36,763 nt of DNA from assembly GCA_014240065.1 (NCBI GenBank), contig JAAZXR010000014.1, positions 1-36,763 on the forward strand, written 5' to 3'. The stretch is from Myxococcales bacterium (GTDB lineage: Bacteria; Myxococcota_A; Polyangia; Nannocystales; Nannocystaceae). Positions within the stretch are counted from its first letter, which is position 1; every line of letters begins with the position of its first letter. The notes below the pieces were generated by a model. That model saw only the letters and a list, made by a program, of their open reading frames with translations, did no database searches and was not told where the DNA came from. This document shows positions 583 to 34,225 of the stretch, one piece after another. A program made the position numbers and the translations under genes.

Positions 583-2484
583 CTAGTCTTCTGGATCTTC
601 CGGGGCGTTCGGGGCCGGCGCGCTCGGGGCCGGCGCGCTCGGGGCCGGCGCGCTCGGGGCCGGCGCGCTCGGAAGATCGTCGAGCAACGAGGCCCAGGAA
701 GGGACCGATGGCGCTGCGACCGGCGGCGCTGGAACCGGCGGCGCTGCGACCGGCGGCGCTGGAACCGGCGGCGCTGGAACCGGCGGCGCTGCGACCGGCG
801 GCGCTGCGACCGGCGGCGCTGGAAAGTCGGGAAGCGGAGCCGCCACCTTCGAAGGAGGGCTTGCGCCCCCCGCGGCGGGCCGCTTCGCCCGCGCCGGAGC
901 TTCCAATTTCGGGAGCTTCGCCGGCGCGACCGCTGCGGGTTTCAGGGGGCCGACCGCGGGCTTCAAGTCAGACGAAATGGGCTCCGCAGGCGTGGAATCC
1001 CCCGAGCCTTTCGCGCCAAGAGGATTCGCCAACGCGGCGGAGAACGGTGAGTTCACCGCTGGCGCCGGAGGCTTGTCCGCGCTTGAGGACGGTGCGGCTG
1101 CCGCGGAAGCTTTTGCCGCCCGCAACGGAGGCAGCCCCGCGAGGACACCGCCGCCCGATTGCCCGCCCATCTTGGGTCGCGTGCCCGCCGGGGTCGAAGG
1201 CTTCGCCGCCTCCGTGTCGTCGGCGATCTTCTTCAGCGACGGCAGCGACGGCAGCGACGGCAGCGACGGCAGCGACGGCGTAGGCGGCTTGAGCGGACGA
1301 GCCTCCGGCCCGATGGGAGCCTGCCCGACCGGGCCCCGCGCCTCGGCGGTCACTGGAGAGGACACCGCGCGCTCCGAAAGCGCCGCTTGTCGCGCCGCGT
1401 GCTTGGCGGCCTTCGCCTGGGCTTTCGCCTCCTGCCGCTCGCGTCGCCGCGCCTCTTTTTTTACGCGCTTGTCAGACTTCGACCGCTTGCCCTTCGTCCG
1501 CTTCGCCGGAGTTTGCGCCGTCGGAGCCGCGGGCGACGCGGACGCCTCGTCACGGGGGCCGGCCGTCTCTTGGCCCGCCTGCTGCTGGCCCGCCTGCTGC
1601 TGTCGCGCCGCTTTTTCTCGCGTCTTGAGCTCGCCGCGTAAGCTCTTGCGCGCGCGCTTCACCAGCGCGCGAACCACCGGATCCCCATCTCTCTCGTGAT
1701 CGGAGAGCCGCTCAAAACAACCGATGGCTCCATCGATGTCCCCTTCGCGATGCAGCGCGAGGCTCTTCGCCGCGAGGGCGCGCGGATGCGATGCGAGCGC
1801 GCCCTCGAGCGCCTCAAGATCCTCCACCACCTGCTTCATCGAGCCGGGATCCGAGAGCTTCGCGATGGCCAAGTCGAGTCGCACTTGCGGATCGAAGTCT
1901 TTGAGATCGCCGAGATCGTGGAGGCGGGAGAGCGCCTCCTTGTGATCGCCCGCCATGACGAGGGCGTGGGCTTGGGCCGCCTGCATCGAGCGCGACACCT
2001 CCGTCGCGACGCTCGCTTGCGCGGCGCGGGCGTAGGCCGCCGCGGCCGCCCGAAAATCACCGATCCTCAGCTGCAAGCGGCCCTCCATCAGCGGCGTGAA
2101 ATTCGCCGGTGCGAACCAATCGACGGCCTTGCGCTCGCGCAACGATCCCAGCAAAGTGCGAGCCGCGCCCGCGGTCGTGGTGTCGCGCACCTCGCCATCC
2201 AAGCGATGGAGCGGCCGCATCCCCATGGCACGGGAGAGAAACCAACCGGCGATCCCCGCCAGCGCGAAGCCCACCGCCACCCCGATTTGCGCCCGAGCGA
2301 TCCACGCCAGCAATAAACTGAACGCCGCGATGTTAAAGCTCAATAGACGGCCCTTGAGTGGCCGGGGCCCGCGGGTCCAAGACGAGGAGTCCACGCGGTC
2401 GTCAAACACAAGATCGATGGGGGCGCTCACAGGGTCGCCACTGTGCACCACTCCACGCGACGCCCGCAAGATCGACCGCGCCAT
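583..2484 (-). CDS. TPR membrane protein with Pro/Ala repeat tail
   Basis: A protein of 633 residues using the ATG at 2484, chosen because a GGGGGGAGA ribosome-binding sequence lies about 7 bases upstream; an in-frame start at 2520 lacks one. Two hydrophobic segments near residues 55-85 suggest a membrane anchor (IAAFSLLLAWIA, then VGFALAGIAGWFLS). Residues of roughly 125-280 look like TPR helices (e.g. GDFRAAAAAYARAAQ, GDIDGAIGCFERL). After about residue 290 the protein is low complexity: Gln/Ala, then Lys/Arg-rich, then LPS repeats, then PPVAA/PPVPA and APSAP repeats. Such tails are commonly flexible spacers. Function is not recognised; protein-protein scaffolding is inferred from the TPRs. 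It is divergent from the M48-like gene, with about 100 bases between starts. Confidence 0.75.
   Translation of the reverse strand: MARSILRASRGVVHSGDPVSAPIDLVFDDRVDSSSWTRGPRPLKGRLLSFNIAAFSLLLAWIARAQIGVAVGFALAGIAGWFLSRAMGMRPLHRLDGEVRDTTTAGAARTLLGSLRERKAVDWFAPANFTPLMEGRLQLRIGDFRAAAAAYARAAQASVATEVSRSMQAAQAHALVMAGDHKEALSRLHDLGDLKDFDPQVRLDLAIAKLSDPGSMKQVVEDLEALEGALASHPRALAAKSLALHREGDIDGAIGCFERLSDHERDGDPVVRALVKRARKSLRGELKTREKAARQQQAGQQQAGQETAGPRDEASASPAAPTAQTPAKRTKGKRSKSDKRVKKEARRRERQEAKAQAKAAKHAARQAALSERAVSSPVTAEARGPVGQAPIGPEARPLKPPTPSLPSLPSLPSLPSLKKIADDTEAAKPSTPAGTRPKMGGQSGGGVLAGLPPLRAAKASAAAAPSSSADKPPAPAVNSPFSAALANPLGAKGSGDSTPAEPISSDLKPAVGPLKPAAVAPAKLPKLEAPARAKRPAAGGASPPSKVAAPLPDFPAPPVAAPPVAAPPVPAPPVPAPPVAAPPVPAPPVAAPSVPSWASLLDDLPSAPAPSAPAPSAPAPSAPAPNAPEDPED
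611..670. repeat. 15-bp tandem repeat, 4 copies
   Basis: Four perfect copies of GGGGCCGGCGCGCTC, encoding APSAP units at the C-terminus of the reverse-strand TPR protein. The exact identity of the copies suggests recent slippage expansion. Confidence 0.9.
721..825. repeat. 15-bp tandem repeat, 7 near-identical copies
   Basis: Seven copies of CGGCGGCGCTG followed by GAAC, CGAC or GAAA, encoding PPV-A/P-A units in the reverse-strand TPR protein. The two main variants alternate irregularly. Confidence 0.9.
1234..1278. repeat. 9-bp tandem repeat, 5 copies
   Basis: Five perfect copies of CAGCGACGG encode the LPS tripeptide repeat of the reverse-strand TPR protein. Confidence 0.9.
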
Positions 2485-2586
2485 GACAGTTCTCCCCCCA
2501 CGCTTGCTACACTGCTCCACAGCGGCGCCACCCCAACGCGCGGTTGTTCGCCCCCTAGGTCTTTTGCGCGGTTAGCGCGGTTCCCC

Positions 2587-3528
2587 ATGGACGCAACTCC
2601 CGAAAATTCTCCTGACGACCGCGACGACGAAAGCGACGAGGCCCGCGTCGTGGAGGGCCTCCTGCATCGTCGACACAACGCCGCGCACAAGGAGCGACGC
2701 GCCCGTGACGCCTACGCCTTCGGTGTCGACGTGCGGCGCACGCGATGGTTTCTTCAACACCGTCTGTTTGGCGCGGGTCTGCGGGCGGTGGAGCGGCGAT
2801 GGAAATCGGTGTGGGACGCGGTGCAACATGACAGCCTCGAGGACGAGGCCATCTGTCCTGCGCCGCTGCTGCGCGAGCTGGCCAGCTGCGTCAAGATCCT
2901 CGGCGCGCCCACCCCGACAGTCTCCTGCCTCAACGAGCGCGCCCACCTGTCGGGCGCGTGGCCAAGCGTGACCACCTTAGGGACGAGCCACGGCGACGTG
3001 CGCCATCTGTTGCTCGACCTGCGCGGACTTCAAGCCCTCTCCGATGTCGAGCGCCGCTTCGCGCTGGCGTCAGGGCTCGGCCACCTCCAATGCGACCACG
3101 CGGTGTTTTTCACGGCCGCGCTCGTGGCTCGACTCGAAGGCTCAAGCGTCGCATATCGCGGGCTCCAACGCGCCCTGCGCCCCGCGACGAAGCTCATGTG
3201 TTTTTCTGCGGATCGCGCGGCGCTCTTGTGCGGTGACGGGCTCGAGTCGACCATGGAGGGGCTCCGCCAACAAGTCGCGGAGAGCCGCAGCGCCAACACC
3301 CGCTGGCTCCCGCAGCCGTCCAGCTACGACCTGCGAGTGACCGCGCTGCGAGAGTTCTTTCGCAGCGATGTACACGCTCGCATCCTCAGCGCTCGCATGG
3401 TCAAGGCGAGCGGCGAGCGCTCCTCTCACGGAGGCGACGGCGTCGAGCCCAAGGCCCACGTCCCAGACGACGCGTGGTCGGTCGCGAGGATAGACCGCCG
3501 CCTCACCCGGAGGCTCGGCCTCCTCTAG
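2587..3528 (+). CDS. Degenerate M48-peptidase-like protein
   Basis: 313 residues from the ATG at 2587; the open frame extends further upstream, but this start precedes an Asp/Glu-rich acidic N-terminus and sits about 100 bases from the divergent gene. Around residues 130-215 the layout resembles M48 peptidases: a strand-like segment, then SGLGHLQCDH where the family has HExxHxxxxH, then MCFSADRAALL where the family has ExxADxxA. The first His and the Glu of the motif are replaced by Ser and Gly, and the third-ligand Glu by Cys, so a normal zinc protease activity is unlikely. It is the first gene of an apparent operon with two dynamin-like GTPase genes (15 bases to the next start). The family assignment is inference from motif layout only. 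Confidence 0.6.
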   Translation: MDATPENSPDDRDDESDEARVVEGLLHRRHNAAHKERRARDAYAFGVDVRRTRWFLQHRLFGAGLRAVERRWKSVWDAVQHDSLEDEAICPAPLLRELASCVKILGAPTPTVSCLNERAHLSGAWPSVTTLGTSHGDVRHLLLDLRGLQALSDVERRFALASGLGHLQCDHAVFFTAALVARLEGSSVAYRGLQRALRPATKLMCFSADRAALLCGDGLESTMEGLRQQVAESRSANTRWLPQPSSYDLRVTALREFFRSDVHARILSARMVKASGERSSHGGDGVEPKAHVPDDAWSVARIDRRLTRRLGLL

Positions 3529-3543
3529 CCCGCGAAGCACTTC

Positions 3544-5433
3544 ATGGCTACCGACGTCAGCACACCCCTCACGAGCGACGACTTCATCGCCGCCTTGACA
3601 GATCTCGCGCGCCGTCTCTCCAACGTCGCGAAGACCCTCGGGCTGCATGATGTCGCCCAGACGATCGAAGAGGATCGGCACCGGAGGATCGATCAAGGGC
3701 GACTGCGCGTCGCCGTCATCGGGGAGATCAAACACGGCAAGAGCACCCTCATCAACGCGCTGCTTGGTCAAGATGTCTTGCCCGCCGGTGTCACGCCAAC
3801 CACCGGGGCGCTCGTCTCCGTGAGGCGGGGGGCCAAGACGCGGCGCCTCCGAATCCCCGCGAACGCTCGCGACGCCGACGTCCCGCTCGACGAGGCCACC
3901 TTTCGTGCGCTCGCGCGAGGATCCACGGGCGATGACGGAGCCGCCACCCACCAAGACGCCCTCCGCGTCGAGGTCAGCGGCGCTGAATTGCACGGTGACC
4001 TTGAGCTTATCGACACGCCGGGGCTCAACGACATCTCGAAATTTCGGAGCTTGGTCAGCCGCGACGAATTCCCGCGCGCCGACGTGCTCGTGATCGTCCT
4101 CGACGCGACGCAGGCCATGACCGCGAGCGAGCTCGCGTTGCTCGGCGAAGCCCTCGACGCCGTCGGCGGACTTCAGCGCACAGGCGCCACCTTGGAGGTG
4201 GTCATCAACCGCGTCGACTTGCTCGCGGAGGAGGACGTCGCGACGGTTGCGGATCACGTCTCCGCGAAACTGGCCGACATCTTGCCGCACAGACCGACCC
4301 CGTTCATGACGAACGCCCGCGGCGCCCTGCGAGCTCCCGACGATGAGAGCCTCGGAGTCCGCGATGTCGCCCGACTTCGAGAGCGCCTCGCGTTCTTGGC
4401 GGACTCGCGCGAGACCTTGCTACCGGCGCGCATGCGGAGCGCGCTCCTCAAGCACGCGCACCTGCTCGAGTATCACGCGGCCATCCACGCGCGATGTGTC
4501 GCGCTCGACTCGACCCAGCTTGAGGCGGAGCTTCGCGCCCTCGACCGGGCCGTCGTCGACGAGCTCCTGGATGAGGCGGCCCTTCATCAACGCATCAACA
4601 ACATGCGGGATCGATTAAAAGAGGACTTCCGCGCCTCGGTCGCTGAGCGCTTCGAGCAGCTTGGCGCGCGCGGGGCCAGGTATCTCGAAGGGGCAGACCT
4701 CCACGACCTGACCGACGCGTTCCCGGGCGCGCTCCGCACGGGGATCCTCGAAGCGGCGCTCGAGGAGTCGAAGCGACTGCGCGGCGCGCTCGACGACTTT
4801 TGCGACGAGCTCATCGCGACCCACAGCGACCTCGCATACCGCCGCGTCCTCGAGTCCAACCTCCGGCTCCGCTTCGAGACGCCGCCGATCTTCATCGAGC
4901 CGCCCTCGGTGTTCGTGGAGGCTGGCAGCCTCGCGCTCGGCTTGGGCGGTACGGTCATCATGTACTTCGGAGGGACCGTCCCCGGCATGCTCATGGCGGT
5001 CGCCTCCCCGCTCGCCTCCATGGTGCTCCGAGAGCGCGCGGTACAAGAGGCGCGGGCCCACTGCAAAGAGCGCATCCCCGCCGCCCTCGAGCTCGCCCAA
5101 GCCGCGCTCACCGGATCGCTCGAGCTCGTCATCGATCGTTACCTCCGCGCGCTCGGCGGCCACATCTCGCTCGCCCGCGACGAGCTTGGCCATCAACTGC
5201 AGGCGGTCCTTCAACACGCGCTAGAGGCCCAAGCTGACGCGGAGGCGGAACCCCCTTCACCGGAGCGCCGAGAGGACGCCCCCTTCCTCCAACCGAACCT
5301 CCGCAAGCGACAACTGCTCGACGAGGCCACGCGGTGTCGTGCGGAGGTCGCGAACGTCGCCGCCTCGCTCCACGCGCTGACCGAAGGCCCGGTGTCATCA
5401 TCGGTGTCGACGGAGCCGCGAACGCTCCACTAA
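3544..5433 (+). CDS. Dynamin-like GTPase
   Basis: 629 residues. G1 P-loop GEIKHGKS at 60-67, switch threonines in PTTG at about 85-88, G3 DTPG at 157-160 and G4 NRVD at 222-225 (the Lys of NKxD is Arg). The remainder is mostly helical with a hydrophobic Gly-rich segment at about 459-492 (LALGLGGTVIMYFGGTVPG and onward), in the place where bacterial dynamin-like proteins carry a membrane paddle or transmembrane hairpin. Bacterial dynamins bind and remodel membranes on GTP hydrolysis. The gene ends 4 bases before the start of a second dynamin-like gene, so the two are almost certainly co-transcribed and may form a hetero-oligomer, as known for other paired bacterial dynamins. Specific role unknown. 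Confidence 0.88.
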   Translation: MATDVSTPLTSDDFIAALTDLARRLSNVAKTLGLHDVAQTIEEDRHRRIDQGRLRVAVIGEIKHGKSTLINALLGQDVLPAGVTPTTGALVSVRRGAKTRRLRIPANARDADVPLDEATFRALARGSTGDDGAATHQDALRVEVSGAELHGDLELIDTPGLNDISKFRSLVSRDEFPRADVLVIVLDATQAMTASELALLGEALDAVGGLQRTGATLEVVINRVDLLAEEDVATVADHVSAKLADILPHRPTPFMTNARGALRAPDDESLGVRDVARLRERLAFLADSRETLLPARMRSALLKHAHLLEYHAAIHARCVALDSTQLEAELRALDRAVVDELLDEAALHQRINNMRDRLKEDFRASVAERFEQLGARGARYLEGADLHDLTDAFPGALRTGILEAALEESKRLRGALDDFCDELIATHSDLAYRRVLESNLRLRFETPPIFIEPPSVFVEAGSLALGLGGTVIMYFGGTVPGMLMAVASPLASMVLRERAVQEARAHCKERIPAALELAQAALTGSLELVIDRYLRALGGHISLARDELGHQLQAVLQHALEAQADAEAEPPSPERREDAPFLQPNLRKRQLLDEATRCRAEVANVAASLHALTEGPVSSSVSTEPRTLH

Positions 5434-5437
5434 CGTC

Positions 5438-8400
5438 ATGTCCACCAACGAAAAACCGGTCGGACCCCGCATCTCCGTCGGCGACGCTCTGGGAGGCATC
5501 GCCCGGCGCGTCGGTGAGTTTGTCTCTGGTGTCTCGGACTCCGTCACGCTCCCAGAGGTCGTGCGCGTGGCCCTCGCCGAGGGCGCCGCGCTCCAACAAC
5601 AAGGATCGTGTCTCGACGCGCGCGAGGTCTACCTCGCCGCGTTGCTCGAGCGACCCGACGAGCCGGTGTTGTCCCACGCGCTCGCGACTTGCTGGATGGA
5701 GGCGCGACTGTTCCATCAGCAACACTTCGAGGCGCCAGCATTTCCCACGGAAGATCCATCGCGCTGGGCCGCCATTCAGTCCCTCGTCGCCGCGGCGCAG
5801 GCCCACCACAACGGTGAGAGCGAGCGATGTCTCGAGCAGGTCCGCAAGGCGAGGCGCGCCCCCAAGATCAGCCCACGCGGCGTGCGACGCGTCGCGGATC
5901 GCTGCGCGCACCTCCTCGCCGCGCACGCCTACGCGTCGCTGGGAAGACCGCGACGCGCGGCGCACGAGGTGCTGTCGGCGCGAGGCACCGTCGACGATTC
6001 CACCAACCTCCACGTCCGCGCCGGCGTGCTCCGGCTGGGCGTCCACGTCATGATGGCCGAAGGCCGATACGAAGAGGCCGAGCACTGGGCCGCGGAGTTC
6101 GAACGAATCACCCACGGGGCGGCCCCGTTCGACCGAGATCTCCACGAGCTCCGCGCGCGGCTTTGTTCCGTGCGAGGAGATCACGGCAACGCCCTCGCCC
6201 TCGTGAATCTTAACAAGGCGGGCATCGACCCCTCCTCCGCCCAAGTACGGGTGGGGTTGTTGTCAGGGGATCCCGACCAAGCGCGCCGGATATCACTCGC
6301 GTACCTGCGCGGCGCCCCTGCGGATATTGATCGGCAACGGCTGTGGGCGTTGGCCCACCTCAAAGGCGCTGGTGGGGAAGACAACCCCCACGCGGGAGAC
6401 ATCCTCAAGGCCCTCTACGAGCGCGCCGCTAGCCTCCCCGTCGCCGCGCGCGCCCCCTACATTGACGAGTATGCCTTCGTCGCGTTGATGCTCGATCGCT
6501 GCGATCACGAGGCGCTCGGTACCTTGCTGAAAGGGCCCCCCTCGTCCGAGGAGACCGTGTTGGCGTCGTTGCGATCTTGCGATGAGGATCCATCGGCGCT
6601 CGACGAATGGGTGAGCCCTGGTCCGCCCGCGCGCCTGCGACGTCATCGAGAATTCGGCGGTCACCGAGGGCCCGACGAAGTGAGCCCGCTGCGAGATGGA
6701 CCGTCGCGTGCGCGGGTCCTCGCGACCCACCGCGCGCTGATCCTCGCGAAGTGGACGCTGGCCCGCGACCGACGTGAGGAGGCGGCCGAGCTGCTCGTTC
6801 GCGCGCTGATCGAAGATCCTAGCTCGCGACAGGCGGCCGCCATGCTCGGTGCCCTCTCTTCGAGTCAGGCGATCACCTCTCTCGAGCAGGCCCTTCGCGC
6901 GGCGACGGACGCCCTCGCGAAGATCCCTGCGAATATCGGCGGGCTCGAGGTCGGCGCCATCGACACCCATCTGCGGGCGGTCATGGCGGCACGCGAGCGA
7001 CTGGTCCGCCCCCTGACCATCGCGGTCATGGGCGAATTCTCCTCCGGGAAGAGCTCCCTGGTCAACGCGCTGTTTCGAGCCAAGGTCGCCCCGACCGGGG
7101 TCTTGCCCACCACCAGCACCATCAACATTTTTCGACGCGGCGACACCCCACGCGCGCGCGTCCATCGCCGTGACGGCACCGTCACGCTCCTCGATGAGTC
7201 GCAGATCGCCCCCTTCCTCCACACACTCGACGAGACGGGCGCCGCCCAAATCCGGTTCGTAGAAATTGAGCGAGCTGGCGAGGTCATCAAGAATGCCTCC
7301 ATCGTCGACACCCCCGGGCTCAACGCCCTCGACGCCTACCACGAGGAGGTCGCCCGAGAGTTTATCGACGAGGCCGACGCGATCGTCTGGGTGTTCTCGG
7401 CCACGCGGGGCGGGGCGGCCTCCGAGCGGGGCATGCTCGAAGAGCTCGAACGGAGCGGGCGGAAGGTGCTCGGTGTCCTCAACAAGGTCGACACCCTCAC
7501 TGGGGAGGAGCGATCAGAGCTCCTCAACTATCTGCAAACCCAACTCGGTGACGTCCTCGCCGCCCTCGTCCCGCTGTGCGCGACCGAGGCGGAGCGCTGG
7601 CGTATCGATGGGGCGGCGACCAGCGACGGGAGCGATCCCTTCGCGCCCGTGGAGGCGGCCCTCGACACGCACTTCCTCGTCCACGCGCGCGCGCTGAAGC
7701 GACGACTGACCTCACGCACGCTCTTGCGGGCGCTGGAGGCCGTGCGCGACTCGCTGCACCAGGTCATCGCGCAGCTTGAGCGAGAGCGACGACATGATGA
7801 CCCCCAGCCTGCGGACCGCGACGTCTCGGCCGCCCTCGAACGGTTCGCCGAGCGCTTGCGAGCGGCGCTGCTCGCCCAAGATGAATCGCTCACATTGGAG
7901 TGGCTCGCCTCAGGATTCTTGGAGAGGAGTCGAGGGAGCGCCGCGCCGCTCGACGTGGACGCCTCCTTCGCCTCGGATCACCTCGAGCAGGTCCTCAACG
8001 AGACGATTCGCGACACGCTCGTCATCTTCTCACGGGAAGGCGAGCTGGAGTTGACCCTCTCGGAGCACCTCGGCGCCCGCTTCTTGCCGTGGGCCGCGGG
8101 TCATATGGCGGCCCTGCGCGACGCGCGATCCCACGCGCACACCTTGGCGGAGGCGCAGCGCCGGGCGCCGGATGGCGAGGGGGCGATCCGATCATCGATC
8201 CGCGCGAACCTCGAGCCTGTCGCCGCCCGATGGAGGGATCAGATCCTCCGAATGCGTTCAGAGATCGAGGAGTCCGCGGCGGAGCAAGAGCGGCGGCAGC
8301 TGGCCACGGGCCGCGCCCTCGCCACCCGACTGCGAGCGGCGCACCTCGCCGAGATCGAGGCGCTGATCGGCTTCACACGGACACTCAGCGGCGACGGCGT

Positions 8401-8461
8401 CGGCGACGTGACGAGGGCCCAATCTGAAGCCGGTCGGTCGACCACCAAGGACGCCTCTTGA
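5438..8461 (+). CDS. TPR-dynamin-like GTPase fusion
   Basis: 1007 residues. The N-terminal half (about 40-490) is alpha-helical with TPR-like units, such as GSCLDAREVYLAALLERPDEP, GRYEEAEHWAAEFER and REEAAELLVRALIEDPSS. The GTPase domain follows: G1 GEFSSGKS at 531-538, PTTST switch I, G3 DTPGLNAL from about 625 and G4 NKVD at 682-685, all canonical. The C-terminal 300 residues are charged helical (stalk-like) with no clear transmembrane segment, unlike its upstream partner. This suggests a soluble partner recruited through TPR contacts to the membrane-binding dynamin encoded 4 bases upstream. Its stop (TGA at 8459-8461) overlaps the TTG start of rnhB, so rnhB is translationally coupled. Confidence 0.85.
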   Translation: MSTNEKPVGPRISVGDALGGIARRVGEFVSGVSDSVTLPEVVRVALAEGAALQQQGSCLDAREVYLAALLERPDEPVLSHALATCWMEARLFHQQHFEAPAFPTEDPSRWAAIQSLVAAAQAHHNGESERCLEQVRKARRAPKISPRGVRRVADRCAHLLAAHAYASLGRPRRAAHEVLSARGTVDDSTNLHVRAGVLRLGVHVMMAEGRYEEAEHWAAEFERITHGAAPFDRDLHELRARLCSVRGDHGNALALVNLNKAGIDPSSAQVRVGLLSGDPDQARRISLAYLRGAPADIDRQRLWALAHLKGAGGEDNPHAGDILKALYERAASLPVAARAPYIDEYAFVALMLDRCDHEALGTLLKGPPSSEETVLASLRSCDEDPSALDEWVSPGPPARLRRHREFGGHRGPDEVSPLRDGPSRARVLATHRALILAKWTLARDRREEAAELLVRALIEDPSSRQAAAMLGALSSSQAITSLEQALRAATDALAKIPANIGGLEVGAIDTHLRAVMAARERLVRPLTIAVMGEFSSGKSSLVNALFRAKVAPTGVLPTTSTINIFRRGDTPRARVHRRDGTVTLLDESQIAPFLHTLDETGAAQIRFVEIERAGEVIKNASIVDTPGLNALDAYHEEVAREFIDEADAIVWVFSATRGGAASERGMLEELERSGRKVLGVLNKVDTLTGEERSELLNYLQTQLGDVLAALVPLCATEAERWRIDGAATSDGSDPFAPVEAALDTHFLVHARALKRRLTSRTLLRALEAVRDSLHQVIAQLERERRHDDPQPADRDVSAALERFAERLRAALLAQDESLTLEWLASGFLERSRGSAAPLDVDASFASDHLEQVLNETIRDTLVIFSREGELELTLSEHLGARFLPWAAGHMAALRDARSHAHTLAEAQRRAPDGEGAIRSSIRANLEPVAARWRDQILRMRSEIEESAAEQERRQLATGRALATRLRAAHLAEIEALIGFTRTLSGDGVGDVTRAQSEAGRSTTKDAS

Positions 8462-9102
8462 TCCCCTCCGGTCCGCGCCCCCCCCTTCATTTTGGCGTCG
8501 ATGAGGCCGGTCGCGGTCCCGTGTTGGGGCCTATGGTCCTCGCCGCTGTCGGGCTCGACGCTCAAGGTGAGGCGACGTTGACGCAGCTCGGCGTCGCAGA
8601 CAGCAAGGCCTTCGGCTCGGGTCCGCGCGCGAAGGCTCGACGCGGCGCCCTCGCCGAGGAGGTCAACCGCGTCGCGGTGTGGACCGCCACTCGGGTCGCG
8701 ACACCCGAAGTCATCGACGCACGCGTCGCGCGTGGCGAGCTGAACGCGCTCGAGCGAGAGCTCGCTGTGTCCATGCTCGAGTCGGCACCGCTGAATTCGA
8801 GCGACACCATCATCTGCGACGGGACCCGGTTGTTTTCACCGCTGGAGCGGCAGTTTTCGGGGCTCCAGGCCCTCGACAAGGCGGAGTCAAAATCCACGAG
8901 CGTCGCCGCCGCCTCGATCCTCGCCAAGGTCCTTCGGGACGCCGCCTTCGAGCAGATCGCGGGGCGCTACGAGGCGTCGTACGGGCCGCTGAAGGGCGGC
9001 GGCTACCCCAACGCGGCCACCACCGCCTTCCTCGATTGGCACGTCGCCACGTTCGGTGAGCTCCCCCCAGAAACACGCAAAAGTTGGGGCCGCCGAGCCT
9101 GA
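8458..9102 (+). CDS. rnhB: Ribonuclease HII
   Basis: 214 residues. RNase HII cleaves the RNA strand of RNA-DNA hybrids and starts ribonucleotide excision. Visible motifs: VDEAGRGPVLGP (catalytic D15, E16), GVADSK (48-50), ICDGTRLF (D121), and KAESKSTSV..ASILAKVLRD at 141-161. The fourth metal-binding Asp (KGDS in E. coli, KADS in archaea) is Glu here (E143), a conservative change that still could bind metal. The KAxSK..SVAAASI wording is closer to archaeal/eukaryotic RNase H2 than to typical bacterial RnhB. The TTG start at 8458 overlaps the upstream stop and has AAGGA 6 bases upstream. It is oddly placed behind two dynamin genes. Confidence 0.9.
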   Translation: MIPSGPRPPLHFGVDEAGRGPVLGPMVLAAVGLDAQGEATLTQLGVADSKAFGSGPRAKARRGALAEEVNRVAVWTATRVATPEVIDARVARGELNALERELAVSMLESAPLNSSDTIICDGTRLFSPLERQFSGLQALDKAESKSTSVAAASILAKVLRDAAFEQIAGRYEASYGPLKGGGYPNAATTAFLDWHVATFGELPPETRKSWGRRA

Positions 9103-26861: not shown

Positions 26862-27220
26862 CAATATCTTACTTTACCTCCGGGGAAAACTCGCCAGCTG
26901 CTGTCTAAAAAACACTCACGGCGGATTTTTTTTTCCCTCATGATTTCGGCCTCTTGAAAAACTGTCGTCCCCCGGATCTTGCGGCTCACTTCCAGCGTCC
27001 CGTACAACAAAAAGCCGCACGACGCCCCGCGACAGGGCGACGATGTGTCCCCCAGCTCTGCGAAGCAGCGTAGTTCACACGCTGCCGCATCGGTCTCCAA
27101 GGCCTCCCAGATTCGCGCACTTTACGCACTGTGGACTCTATGGGGATATCGCGTCAAAAAAATTCCATACAACCCAATAATTTCAAACGCATACATCTCT
27201 CTCGACCTCCCTATATCTCT

Positions 27221-28627
27221 GTGAATTCTCGTTCGGAACATCCCGCCTGGAACCAGGCCCTCGCGCAACTGCAAGCGCGGGTTGGCGCGCAAACCTTCGA
27301 GCTGTGTCTCGAACCCATCGCACTGCGCAAGTTTGAAGACACGCTCATCTCGCTCGCTGCCCCGAGTCGATTCATCAAGGACTGGTTTGAGGACCACTAC
27401 CTCGCTGAGGTCTTGGTGGAACTCGAAAAAGTGTGCGGCCACGCCATGACCGCGCAAATTGAGGTGGATCCCGCGCTCGAGGCCGCGCAGTCCTCCGCCG
27501 CCCTGGCCACGTCGAGCCCTGACCACGATGGAGCGTCTGCCGCCACCGCCACCGCCACCGCCGAACCGGCCACCAGCGTCCCGCCGAGCGAACCCGCCCG
27601 GCGTCCGCGAGGGCTGATCCAACGCTACGACTTTCAAACCTTCATCCTCGGGGCGAGCAACGAGCTCGCGGCCTCGGCGGCACGGGCCGCCTCCGAAAAT
27701 CCCGGCCAGCGCTTCAACCCGCTGTTTATCTACGGTGGCGTGGGCCTTGGAAAGACCCACCTGCTGCACGCCGTGGGCCACGCGCTGTACGAGCGCGACC
27801 CCACCACACGCATCAGTTACATCAGCGCGGAGCAGTTCATGAACGAATTCGTCACCGCCGTGCGCCAAAATCGCTTCGACGAATTTCGCGCACGCTACCG
27901 CAACGATTGCGACTGCCTCCTCGTCGACGACATTCAGTTCATCGCCGGTCGCGACCGCACGATGGACGAGTTCTTCCATGTGTTCAATTCGCTGTACGAG
28001 GCTGGCAAACAAATCGTCGTGACCGCCGATTGCGTGCCCTCGCAGATGAAAGGCATGGAGGAGCGGCTAACCTCCCGACTGAACTGGGGCCTCGTCGCAG
28101 ATATCCAGGCGCCGGATCTTGAGACGCGCCTGGCGATTTTGTACGAGAAATCGACGCGGGAGGGCCTAGATCTGCAGCCCGCCGTGGCCATGGAAATCGC
28201 CAAACACGTCAAATCCAACGTTCGCGAGCTTGAGGGCGCTCTGTTGCGAGTCACGGCCCTCGCCGAGCTGCGCGGATGCGACCTCCATCCCGAGTTTGTC
28301 CGCGAAGTCTTAATGCTTCGCAGCGAGCCGAAAAAGGCAGTCACGGTGGAGTCGATTCAAAAGGCCGTGGCCCAGTACTTCACGGTGAAAGTGGCCGATT
28401 TGAAGGGCAATCGCCGACACCGCGCCATCTCTCGGCCGCGCATGATCGCGATGTACCTGTCCCGCGAGCTCACCGGCGCCAGCTTCCCAGAAATTGGGAT
28501 GCGATTCGGAGGCAAAGACCACTCCACGGTGATCAACGCGTGCAAGCGCATCCGCGCGCTTCAGCAAGACGACGACGACACAGAGACGGCCCTCACCTCC
28601 ATCCGTGCGCGCTTGAGCCCCCGATGA
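27221..28627 (+). CDS. dnaA: Chromosomal replication initiator DnaA
   Basis: 468 residues if started at the GTG at 27221 (upstream in-frame GTG 27131 and ATG 27140 exist, but the intervening sequence is AT-rich and gives an atypical peptide). DnaA opens oriC and recruits helicase. Visible: N-terminal domain I WNQALAQLQARVGAQTFELCL, a low-complexity linker of Ala/Thr repeats, Walker A GGVGLGKTH with K178, Walker B LLVDDIQF, sensor regions, and the DNA-binding signature GGKDHSTVINACKRI from about 431. All functional elements are present. It heads the rightward dnaA-dnaN-recF-gyrB row and diverges from rpmH. Confidence 0.96.
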   Translation: MNSRSEHPAWNQALAQLQARVGAQTFELCLEPIALRKFEDTLISLAAPSRFIKDWFEDHYLAEVLVELEKVCGHAMTAQIEVDPALEAAQSSAALATSSPDHDGASAATATATAEPATSVPPSEPARRPRGLIQRYDFQTFILGASNELAASAARAASENPGQRFNPLFIYGGVGLGKTHLLHAVGHALYERDPTTRISYISAEQFMNEFVTAVRQNRFDEFRARYRNDCDCLLVDDIQFIAGRDRTMDEFFHVFNSLYEAGKQIVVTADCVPSQMKGMEERLTSRLNWGLVADIQAPDLETRLAILYEKSTREGLDLQPAVAMEIAKHVKSNVRELEGALLRVTALAELRGCDLHPEFVREVLMLRSEPKKAVTVESIQKAVAQYFTVKVADLKGNRRHRAISRPRMIAMYLSRELTGASFPEIGMRFGGKDHSTVINACKRIRALQQDDDDTETALTSIRARLSPR

Positions 28628-29043
28628 CGGCCGCAGCGCGCCGCGCCTCCGCATCGCCCGCTCTCGGCGCGCTGTGGGCCACAGATCGACGCCGCCCGAA
28701 AACGGATCCGCCACGTCCGCCACGAACCGGCCACGCCGCTCACAAGGGCGCCGGCGCCTCGTGTCGTGACGCGCGCCGGCGTCGCTCCATCGCGCCGACG
28801 AACGAAGGGCGCTGCGTCGTCGGGAGCCCGCGCACCATCGATGATTTCCACTCCGGCGAAACTGTATTCTGCGGGCAAATAGCGGCGCGGACCCTCATTT
28901 TTGAGGAAGTCACACACACCCTGTGGGCGGACCGTTGTGGAGCGGCGCTCGCGGACTACTTTCCCCCAATCTTGACTGCTTTATTCCCACCACTCCCCAA
29001 GGTTAAACTCCGATTTTCCTGTGCATCTCCACGGGTTATGGTG

Positions 29044-29060
29044 TTGTCCACAAATCCACA
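29044..29060. promoter_or_regulatory. Tandem DnaA-box-like sites
   Basis: TTGTCCACA (one mismatch to the TTATNCACA consensus) overlaps by one base with AAATCCACA (two mismatches). They lie immediately upstream of the AT-rich palindrome. Confidence 0.5.
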
Positions 29061-29080
29061 GCCCAGATCAGGATCACTAG

Positions 29081-29094
29081 TTAATTTAAATTAA
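29081..29094. promoter_or_regulatory. All-A/T palindrome, possible unwinding element
   Basis: TTAATTTAAATTAA is a perfect 14-bp palindrome composed only of A and T, followed by GAATTTGATCTCTTTT. It lies about 40 bases before dnaN and 20 bases after the DnaA-box-like pair. Confidence 0.4.
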
Positions 29095-29133
29095 GAATTT
29101 GATCTCTTTTCTTGGAAGCAAACCACCTCGCTC

Positions 29134-30231
29134 ATGCAAACAACCGTCGAACAATCCCACCTCTCCTCCGCGCTTGGTCTCGCGCAAACAGTCGCGCCCT
29201 TGCGTCGCATCAAGCCGATCTTGGCGAACGTATTTTTGCAGGCAGACGGAGATCATCTGCGATGTTCCGCCACGGACTTGATCGTCTCGTTGACCGAGCG
29301 AGTACCAGCGTCCGTGAAGACGGGCGGCTCGATCACCGTGAACGCTCGAGACTTTAACGGCATCATCCGCAACCTCCCCGGGGGGGCCTGCGTGTTGAAA
29401 GCGGACGCGAATCACAATCTTGAGCTCAAGGCGACCGCAGCGCGATTCAACCTCGTCGGGATGTCGGAGGCCGACTTTCCGTCGTTGCCCGATCCGAAGG
29501 CGGTCGAATTCAGCACAGTCCCAGCGCACCTGCTCTCCGATCTCATTCAAAAGACGACCTTCTCGGTGTCCGACGACGAGGCCCGCGTGAACCTCAACGG
29601 GGCGCTGTTGCAAAGCGACGGGAGCCACGCGTCGACGGTGTCCACCGACGGCCACCGTTTGACCTTCTTCAAGCTCCCCTTCGCGGGTCCAAAGCTCGCG
29701 AAAGACGTGATCATTCCGCGCAAGGGGATGGTCGAGATTCGCAAGGTGCTCGAGCGGGTCTCCGGGGACGTGGAGCTGGGTTTCTCCAAGGATCACGTGT
29801 TCGTACGCAGCGAGGCGCTGCTGTTGTCTGTGAAGCTCAACGACGTCGCCTTCCCGCCCTATGCCCAGGTGATTCCAAAAGGGCACAGCCGCGTGGTGCT
29901 CGTCGATCGTGAGCATTTGCTCGCGAATCTGCGCCTCGCGCAGCAGCTAGCCCCGGAGCGGGCGTCGACCGTCAAGCTTGAGATCTCCGCGGAGGAGATG
30001 GTCTTGACCGCAGACAACCCTGACAAGGGGGTCGCGGAATTGAAGCTGCCCGTGACGCTGGAAGGGGAGCCCCTCGTGACCGGGTTCAACGCGAGCTACC
30101 TCACCGAGGCGGTCGAGGCCTGCGACACCGAGCAGGTCCGAATGGAGTTCCAAGGCGAGCTCGATCCCTGCGTGGTGCGACCGAGCGAAGGCCCTGAGCT
30201 CCTCGCGGTGGTGATGCCGATGCGGATTTAG
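29134..30231 (+). CDS. dnaN: DNA polymerase III beta sliding clamp
   Basis: 365 residues, the usual length. The ring-shaped clamp tethers polymerase III to DNA. Visible: N-terminal LRRIKPILANVFLQAD, second-domain STDGHRLTFFKLPF, and the C-terminal VVMPMRI that closes all clamps and shapes the protein-binding pocket. The ATG at 29134 follows GGAAG at a long spacing of about 15 bases. It is the second gene of the rightward origin row, with recF starting 26 bases downstream of its stop, so the two are probably co-transcribed. Confidence 0.97.
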   Translation: MQTTVEQSHLSSALGLAQTVAPLRRIKPILANVFLQADGDHLRCSATDLIVSLTERVPASVKTGGSITVNARDFNGIIRNLPGGACVLKADANHNLELKATAARFNLVGMSEADFPSLPDPKAVEFSTVPAHLLSDLIQKTTFSVSDDEARVNLNGALLQSDGSHASTVSTDGHRLTFFKLPFAGPKLAKDVIIPRKGMVEIRKVLERVSGDVELGFSKDHVFVRSEALLLSVKLNDVAFPPYAQVIPKGHSRVVLVDREHLLANLRLAQQLAPERASTVKLEISAEEMVLTADNPDKGVAELKLPVTLEGEPLVTGFNASYLTEAVEACDTEQVRMEFQGELDPCVVRPSEGPELLAVVMPMRI

Positions 30232-30256
30232 CGGCGCGCCAACGAGAAAGTACGTC

Positions 30257-31396
30257 TTGGAGCTTCGAGAACTCAAGCTAGCGCAGTATCGAAACATCGC
30301 TGAGGCGACGCTGCCGCTCGACGTGAGGTTCACGGTCATCTGGGGCGAAAATGGAGCTGGGAAGACGAACCTCATCGAGGCGATTTACCTGATCAGCACC
30401 TTCCGGTCGTTTCGTACCAACGATCAGCGGGTGCTGCTGCGGGCGGGGCATCGAGAAGCGCTCACGAGCCTGACGGCCTTCGATCCTTCTCTCGGTCTGT
30501 CCTCGACCTTTGAGGTTCGGATCGCGCAAAATGACCGCTCGACGAGGAAGACGGGGAGCGTTGATGGTAAGCGGGTGGCGGCCGCCAAAGACTTTTATGG
30601 TCGGGTCCGGGCGATCTTGTTCACGCCGGAAGATCTCGGGATGCTCCGCGGCTCACCGAGCGGTCGGCGACAATTCCTCGATCGGGTGATCTTCGCCCAA
30701 GATCGAGCGCACATTGGCGACATCCAGGATTACGAGAAAACCGTCCGCTCCCGAAACAAGATCCTGAAATCGGAGGGGGGCGCTGGCGCGGCGCAACAAG
30801 CGGCCTTGCTGGACAGCTACGACGAAGGGATCAGCGCACTCGGGGCGCGAATATGGTGTCGGAGGGCCGCCGTCGTGGACGCAATTCGGCCTGGGTTCTT
30901 GCGAGCGTTTGAGGAGATTCATGGCCCTGGGCTCGCGCCGGCGCTCGACTATGCCTCTGGGGTCCAGCTCGGGGAGGGGCTGCCTGCGCGAGCCGAGGTC
31001 CAGCGGCTGTATCTCGAACAGCTTCAAGCCAAGCGCGGACAAGATCTCGCCCGCGGCGCGACGTCGGTGGGTCCTCATCGAGATGACCTCCAGTTCACGG
31101 TATTTCAGTCCCCGGCGGCCGATTTTGCCTCTCAAGGGCAGGCGCGGGCCCTCGTGTTGGCCTTCAAAATTGCCGAATTGCGCCTCACCAGAGCGCGCAT
31201 CGGCTATGCCCCGATCTTGCTGCTCGACGACGTCTCAAGTGAGCTCGACCCGTCGCGGAACGCCAAGCTGTTCGACATGCTCTGGGCGGACGCTGGGCAG
31301 TGTGTGCTGACGACGACCTCGCCCGATTTCATCCGCCTCGCGGAAGGTGCTTCCCGGAGGACCGTAGAGGTCGTGGGCGGCTCACTCTCCACGTAG
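30257..31396 (+). CDS. recF: DNA replication and repair protein RecF
   Basis: 379 residues from the TTG at 30257 (GAGAAAG just upstream). RecF is an SMC-like ATPase that loads RecA on gapped DNA together with RecO and RecR. Visible: N-terminal MELRELKLAQYRNI (family LxxFRN), Walker A GENGAGKTN from residue 30, the signature region ASQGQARALVLAFKIAEL at about 290, and Walker B with D-loop ILLLDDVSSELDPSRN. All conserved parts are present. Position between dnaN and gyrB is classical. Confidence 0.95.
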   Translation: MELRELKLAQYRNIAEATLPLDVRFTVIWGENGAGKTNLIEAIYLISTFRSFRTNDQRVLLRAGHREALTSLTAFDPSLGLSSTFEVRIAQNDRSTRKTGSVDGKRVAAAKDFYGRVRAILFTPEDLGMLRGSPSGRRQFLDRVIFAQDRAHIGDIQDYEKTVRSRNKILKSEGGAGAAQQAALLDSYDEGISALGARIWCRRAAVVDAIRPGFLRAFEEIHGPGLAPALDYASGVQLGEGLPARAEVQRLYLEQLQAKRGQDLARGATSVGPHRDDLQFTVFQSPAADFASQGQARALVLAFKIAELRLTRARIGYAPILLLDDVSSELDPSRNAKLFDMLWADAGQCVLTTTSPDFIRLAEGASRRTVEVVGGSLST

Positions 31397-31541
31397 CCAA
31401 GCCCCGCGATCCCGCCGATCCGCGTGCGCCGAGCGCCGCTGAAGAGCAGCGTTGGCGTCGCAGTTTCGTGCTCGAGGAGCCCGCGTTTTGGGGCCGCCGA
31501 CAATCCTCTCAAAGACCCAGAATCCGGCCGCCTCGAGGGGG

Positions 31542-31572
31542 CCTTTGGGAGGCCGAATTCCTCCCTCAAAGG
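31542..31572 (+). terminator. Hairpin downstream of recF
   Basis: CCTTTG (31542-31547) and GGAGG (31548-31552) pair with CCTCC (31560-31564) and CAAAGG (31567-31572) around a 7-base loop, with a 2-base bulge. It is 145 bases after recF and is not followed by a real T run, so a terminator role is uncertain; a leader element is an alternative. Confidence 0.35.
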
Positions 31573-31621
31573 GGCCTAAAATGCGGTCATACGCCTGGCT
31601 CCAACACGGCTACGGTGTTAG

Positions 31622-34225
<2,604 letters not shown>

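Follow-up and report, generated by a model that had tools for sequence, protein, structure and literature searches.

The 36,763-nucleotide stretch of DNA analyzed here (the window), from a Nannocystaceae genome labeled Myxococcales bacterium (assembly GCA_014240065.1, contig JAAZXR010000014.1), carries at positions 2587 to 8461 an operon in which a gene for a degenerate M48-like protein precedes genes for two unlike dynamin-like proteins (DLPs). With moderate confidence, we regard this operon as a vertically inherited, two-dynamin membrane-remodeling module of the Myxococcota whose M48-derived member, here non-catalytic, acts as an adaptor or regulator. The operon comprises the following features.

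2587..3528, forward strand: gene 1, predicted M48-like pseudo-peptidase of 313 amino acids, without a strong hydrophobic segment and with a degenerate HExxH motif
3544..5433, forward strand: gene 2, DLP1, a dynamin-like GTPase of 629 amino acids with a BDLP/IniA/mitofusin-like model
4906..5028, forward strand: hydrophobic trunk-tip (paddle-like) segment of DLP1, residues 455-495
5438..8461, forward strand: gene 3, DLP2, 1,007 amino acids, with a TPR-type N-terminal half, a dynamin GTPase domain and a C-terminal part, without a hydrophobic tip

The open reading frames agreed with a first-pass annotation made from the DNA letters, which had described three forward genes separated by gaps of 15 bases (gene 1 and DLP1) and 4 bases (DLP1 and DLP2). 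Its view that two unlike dynamins and an M48-derived protein in conserved order form an uncharacterized dynamin module also held. A search of open-licence papers on M48 proteins with dynamin, and on dynamin in Sorangium or myxobacteria, found no description of the operon.

The gene 1 protein alone had no match in Pfam, NCBIfam, PADLOC or PDB sequence searches, and its link to M48 was established through orthologues and a structure model, not by direct sequence match. Orthologues in the same slot matched Pfam Peptidase_M48 (PF01435) at up to 3e-26. The AlphaFold model (pLDDT 93) had M48/M56 peptidases as its closest solved structures, the nearest being the putative zinc peptidase 3C37 (Z 9.2), followed by BepA, Ste24/ZMPSTE24 and BlaR1. 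Together, orthologues and model indicate that gene 1 has an M48-like fold and descends from M48 peptidases, in line with the M48-like layout proposed earlier; a structure prediction without that fold had been named as grounds for abandoning the proposal. Both catalytic features are altered. In the alignment, the HExxH position reads S162-G-L-G-H166 (H162 to S, E163 to G, H166 kept), while the third zinc ligand, a Glu in the E-x-x-x-D-R helix, is C205 (E205 to C), with D209-R210 and H171 retained. In Nannocystaceae relatives, this ligand position is occupied by V, A, M or P, again with D209-R210 retained. The protein is thus predicted to be inactive, and the earlier claim that its catalytic residues are replaced was borne out. 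The inactive family also keeps an H-x-x-C-x-H arrangement (H166, C169, H171), a candidate alternative metal site or structural motif; most intact dynamin-linked M48-like copies have N where the inactive family has C169.

Catalytic residues were intact (HECGH, HELGH and similar motifs together with E..DR) in 56 of 89 M48-like orthologues and altered in the remaining 33, which include all Nannocystaceae copies examined. The first-pass annotation was therefore right to call the window protein a pseudo-enzyme, and its relatives in the family can be called the same. However, the module does not always contain a pseudo-enzyme: by sequence, HExxH and the Glu ligand persist in most Myxococcota orthologues. 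On the DLP1 tree, a quick tree with some long branches, the catalytic state changes 7 times without the gene leaving its position, and supported branches require 6 of these changes. As M48 peptidases ancestrally carry HExxH, the simplest reading of the changes is loss, about six times independently and with the gene kept. Such repeated loss speaks against cutting as the essential or core function, and retention of the gene suggests that the protein works as a scaffold or regulator and not as a protease. Loss of catalysis did not correlate significantly with DLP2 linkage (~2 of 6 independent pairs agree, and 4 do not differ).

Between the window and a congener, the ratio of nonsynonymous to synonymous substitution rates (dN/dS) was 0.11 for the M48-like gene, 0.12 for DLP1 and 0.11 for DLP2, compared with 0.22 for a divergently oriented TPR-like neighbor. 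These ratios indicate that gene 1 is under purifying selection as strong as that on the dynamins. Furthermore, Y43, L105, P110, H171, D209, R210 and R250 are invariant across intact and inactive orthologues. Judging from these sequences, selection retains gene 1 for a role that is not catalytic.

Both GTPases have the hallmarks of the dynamin superfamily. DLP1 matched Pfam Dynamin_N at 6e-19 and combines GTPase motifs conserved in relatives (G1 GEIKHGKS at residues 60-67, G2 T86-T87, G3 DTPG at 157-160, G4 D225) with a long helical trunk; its model resembles BDLP, IniA, mitofusin and the Campylobacter jejuni DLP pair. The hydrophobic segment is set in the model between two long trunk helices, with the tip itself modeled at low confidence, and it holds 4 of the protein's 27 invariant residues (G469, G481, A487, P489). 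Sequence and model strongly indicate that DLP1 is a BDLP/mitofusin-type dynamin with a conserved hydrophobic, putatively membrane-binding tip, as had been suggested for the second gene. DLP2 matched Dynamin_N at 4e-24 (residues 528-684), with motifs G1 to G4 invariant. The TPR signal fell below the Pfam threshold in the window protein itself. Orthologues reached 5e-27 for TPR_2 and carried TPR_19 in 9 of 23 cases, which strongly indicates that the N-terminal half consists of tandem TPRs. No hydrophobic segment comparable to the DLP1 tip was seen in DLP2 (maximum 19-mer hydropathy 1.09), so the earlier description of a TPR-dynamin fusion lacking such a segment stands.

The nearest relative of the window is an uncultured Nannocystaceae bacterium with a DLP1 identity of 81%; Nannocystis, Plesiocystis and Enhygromyxa belong to the same family. 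Gene 1 was present beside DLP1 in 26 of 28 other family genomes searched, and the gene-order divergence in relatives that would have counted against the proposed module was not seen. In most family loci, and likewise in distant families of the class, the M48-like gene and DLP1 are followed by DLP2 and usually rnhB. Exceptions within the family are two loci of one genus (L039, L041) without DLP2 in the sequence that follows and a locus (L046) in which DLP2 lies ~4.5 kb past DLP1 (L072, same contig), with a sigma-factor-like gene on the other strand in between. Strict DLP1-DLP2 adjacency is therefore not absolute in the family.

A scan of named genomes with the DLP1 alignment gave 80 loci, all from Myxococcota or from metagenome-assembled genomes under older labels (e.g., Deltaproteobacteria). 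Of the 77 loci with enough upstream sequence, 75 had a co-directional M48-like gene upstream of DLP1; it overlapped the next gene in 32 cases and stood within 100 bases of it in a further 33. The pair spans Nannocystaceae, Kofleriaceae, Sorangium, Polyangium, Sandaracinaceae and Bradymonadia. Linkage of DLP2 was found in Nannocystaceae and Kofleriaceae-like lineages, whereas Polyangiales (Sorangium, Polyangium, Labilithrix) and Sandaracinaceae have the pair without a linked DLP2. Genes downstream of the pair in Polyangiales (histidine kinase, AIR synthase-like, argininosuccinate lyase) were considered as module parts and rejected, because their association with the pair does not hold throughout the phylum. 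In Bradymonadia (Lujinxingia), an FHA-domain gene stands upstream of the pair instead of DLP2, a hint that recruitment there may be phospho-dependent and not rely on the TPR dynamin. Such a gene, encoding an FHA-domain, coiled-coil protein, was seen in Bradymonadia and relatives at L101, L108, L123, L135, L143 and L147.

A phylum sample of 132 genomes, counted by hand from tables with orthologue cutoffs of E<1e-90 (DLP1) and E<1e-60 (DLP2), contained DLP1 in 38 genomes. In 36 of these the M48-like gene lay on the same contig within ~1.5 kb, and one of the two others has DLP1 at a contig edge. A second dynamin (frame of ~800 codons or more) occurred in 35 of the 38, and all 22 genomes with a DLP2 match also carry DLP1. 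These comparisons indicate that the conserved core is the M48-DLP1 pair, with DLP2 linked in some lineages only and a second large dynamin usually elsewhere in the genome. Of the three-gene order expected in other genomes, then, the M48-DLP1 part was upheld and the general linkage of DLP2 was not. The pairing appears from its distribution to be ancient in the phylum and inherited by lineage. Within the family, pairwise distances of the three proteins covaried beyond rnhB (residual r 0.68-0.84, p 0.0005).

An operon related to that of the window was observed in other Myxococcota families (L150, L151, L153, L154 and L155 in genomes G107, G093, G084, G127 and G070, respectively), in the order M48-like gene, P-loop-less dynamin relative, full dynamin. 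Its middle protein, of 440-470 amino acids, aligned with the DLP1 profile (hhalign probability 97.5, E 6e-12) and is a pseudo-GTPase that lacks the P-loop and has a hydrophobic tip; most of its M48-like copies also lack HExxH. Because this operon shows the same coupling and decay, the sequences indicate that coupling of an M48-like protein to a dynamin pair, with decay of the enzyme members, is a recurrent pattern in the phylum.

In the module as we envisage it, the tip of DLP1 would enter the inner membrane from the cytoplasmic side, and DLP2 would assemble with DLP1 as the non-inserting partner and use its TPR half to recruit DLP1 to a site or cargo. GTP cycling would then power membrane tethering, fusion or repair. 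The M48-like protein may bind DLP1 or the DLP1-DLP2 complex, perhaps by its old substrate-binding face, and serve as assembly factor, clamp or off-switch. Copies with an intact site may also cut; binding, not cutting, would be the conserved function. A wider proposal, which we hold only tentatively, is that the pair is a phylum-wide M48-dynamin control unit, comparable in bacteria to OMA1-OPA1. Its protease would several times have turned into a clamp or assembly factor, no longer catalytic, for a two-dynamin membrane machine that one of the dynamins targets through TPRs. Paired bacterial dynamins are known and their regulators are not. An M48-derived partner that is catalytic or inactive by lineage would offer a natural series for comparing control of dynamins by cutting with control by binding, and it is relevant to the possible origin of pairings such as OMA1-OPA1. 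The operon also draws attention to a core membrane-remodeling system in a phylum of predatory and social bacteria.

Several observations weigh against this interpretation. Catalytic sites are intact in most Polyangiales and Bradymonadia, suggesting that proteolysis matters there, and the M48-DLP2 covariation drops with a second control gene (r 0.36, p 0.054). For the gene 1 model, Foldseek ranks M48 proteins near the top, but with a best E of 0.065, and the VIA Z of 9 is moderate only; the fold assignment therefore leans on homology via the intact orthologues.

The intact sites are also what an OMA1-OPA1-like switch would predict. In mitochondria, the M48 peptidase OMA1 responds to stress by cutting the dynamin OPA1 (PMC8027119), and HECGH/HELGH motifs with E..DR stand beside DLP1 in the majority of orthologues. 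The ancestral, widespread peptidase would cleave DLP1 or a partner under stress, ending or changing remodeling, and the window lineage would be a derived exception retaining only binding or inhibition. The roughly six independent catalytic losses with the gene kept argue against such a switch, as does topology, since the M48-like proteins of the window family have no clear transmembrane (TM) segment and both dynamins look cytoplasmic, unlike OMA1 and OPA1. We consider this switch unlikely as the general explanation. By analogy, cutting is possible for the intact copies and would not be expected of the window copy. The opposite extreme, that gene 1 is a functionless, decaying leftover held by translational coupling to DLP1, would account for the lost motif and for the M48-like stop codons that overlap the DLP1 start in many loci. 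Given a dN/dS equal to that of the dynamins, residues kept in intact and inactive forms alike, a confident fold and retention through the whole family, it appears highly improbable.

Paired dynamins are known in defense and in envelope stress, and on this basis the operon could belong with anti-phage or stress-defense systems such as LeoBC or Bacillus DynA; its M48-like protein would then be the sensor or the effector partner. A role in membrane repair has been speculated for such pairs (PMC6104087), and PADLOC gave LeoA/LeoBC matches, although these were weak and rest on the shared GTPase domain. The close neighbors are rnhB and genes for an ECF-type sigma factor, MutM, a KsgA-type methyltransferase and TsaD, and dnaA lies ~19 kb away. 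Because housekeeping genes surround it, the locus is core chromosome and not a defense island, contrary to the phage-defense setting raised by the first-pass annotation. Its conserved order and lineage-wise inheritance likewise differ from patchy gain and loss, and we consider a defense role improbable.

Bacterial DLPs usually occur as operon pairs, and paired dynamins hetero-oligomerize (PMC6104087). The closest parallel is Cj-DLP1/DLP2 of C. jejuni (PDB 5OWV, 5OXF), likewise two unlike dynamins with a third accessory gene in the operon (PMC6104087); window DLP2 matched 5owv_C at 8e-16, and the DLP1 model matched 5OWV. By this likeness, the two DLPs that share the window operon are predicted to form a hetero-oligomer. 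However, the Campylobacter accessory gene is HcpA-like, an M48 protein was not reported, and neither Cj dynamin is fused to a TPR half (PMC6104087). BDLP1 of Nostoc punctiforme (PDB 2J68/2J69/2W6D) and mycobacterial IniA are the best solved matches to DLP1 by sequence and fold. They share its hydrophobic membrane-binding trunk tip at an identity of only ~16%. To our knowledge, neither has an M48 partner. OMA1-OPA1 of mitochondria likewise ties an M48-family protein to a dynamin GTPase (PMC8027119), a likeness by analogy. OMA1, however, is an active protease of the intermembrane space, and gene 1 of the window encodes a protein with neither the catalytic motif nor a clear membrane anchor. The solved M48 peptidases 3C37 (Geobacter), BepA and Ste24/ZMPSTE24 matched the gene 1 model at Z 7-9 and HtpX at Z 5. 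They differ from gene 1, in which HExxH and the third Glu ligand are absent and neither a TM segment nor a secretion signal was seen. LeoABC of enterotoxigenic Escherichia coli is also a bacterial dynamin operon, with weak PADLOC similarity, set in a pathogenicity island rather than the core chromosome. We know of no M48-like member in it.

The window covers the first 36.8 kb of its contig (83 kb), which comes from a genome of 4.7 Mb. Two further genes flank the operon.

8458..9102, forward strand: rnhB (RNase HII), with a TTG start that overlaps the DLP2 TGA stop
583..2520, reverse strand: divergent TPR-like gene, upstream in most Nannocystaceae loci and faster evolving

The co-directional run thus extends beyond DLP2 into rnhB (4-base overlap), which also adjoins the module in many Nannocystaceae and Kofleriaceae-like loci. 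It is probably co-transcribed with the module, yet a housekeeping passenger. The divergent TPR-like gene, whose product has a long Pro/Ala-rich tail, probably lies outside the module. Farther neighbors, read from open reading frames (dnaA by Pfam), are biotin genes, MnmE, YidC and dnaA-dnaN-recF-gyrB. The last cluster, at 27131-34225, suggests that the module may be origin-proximal.

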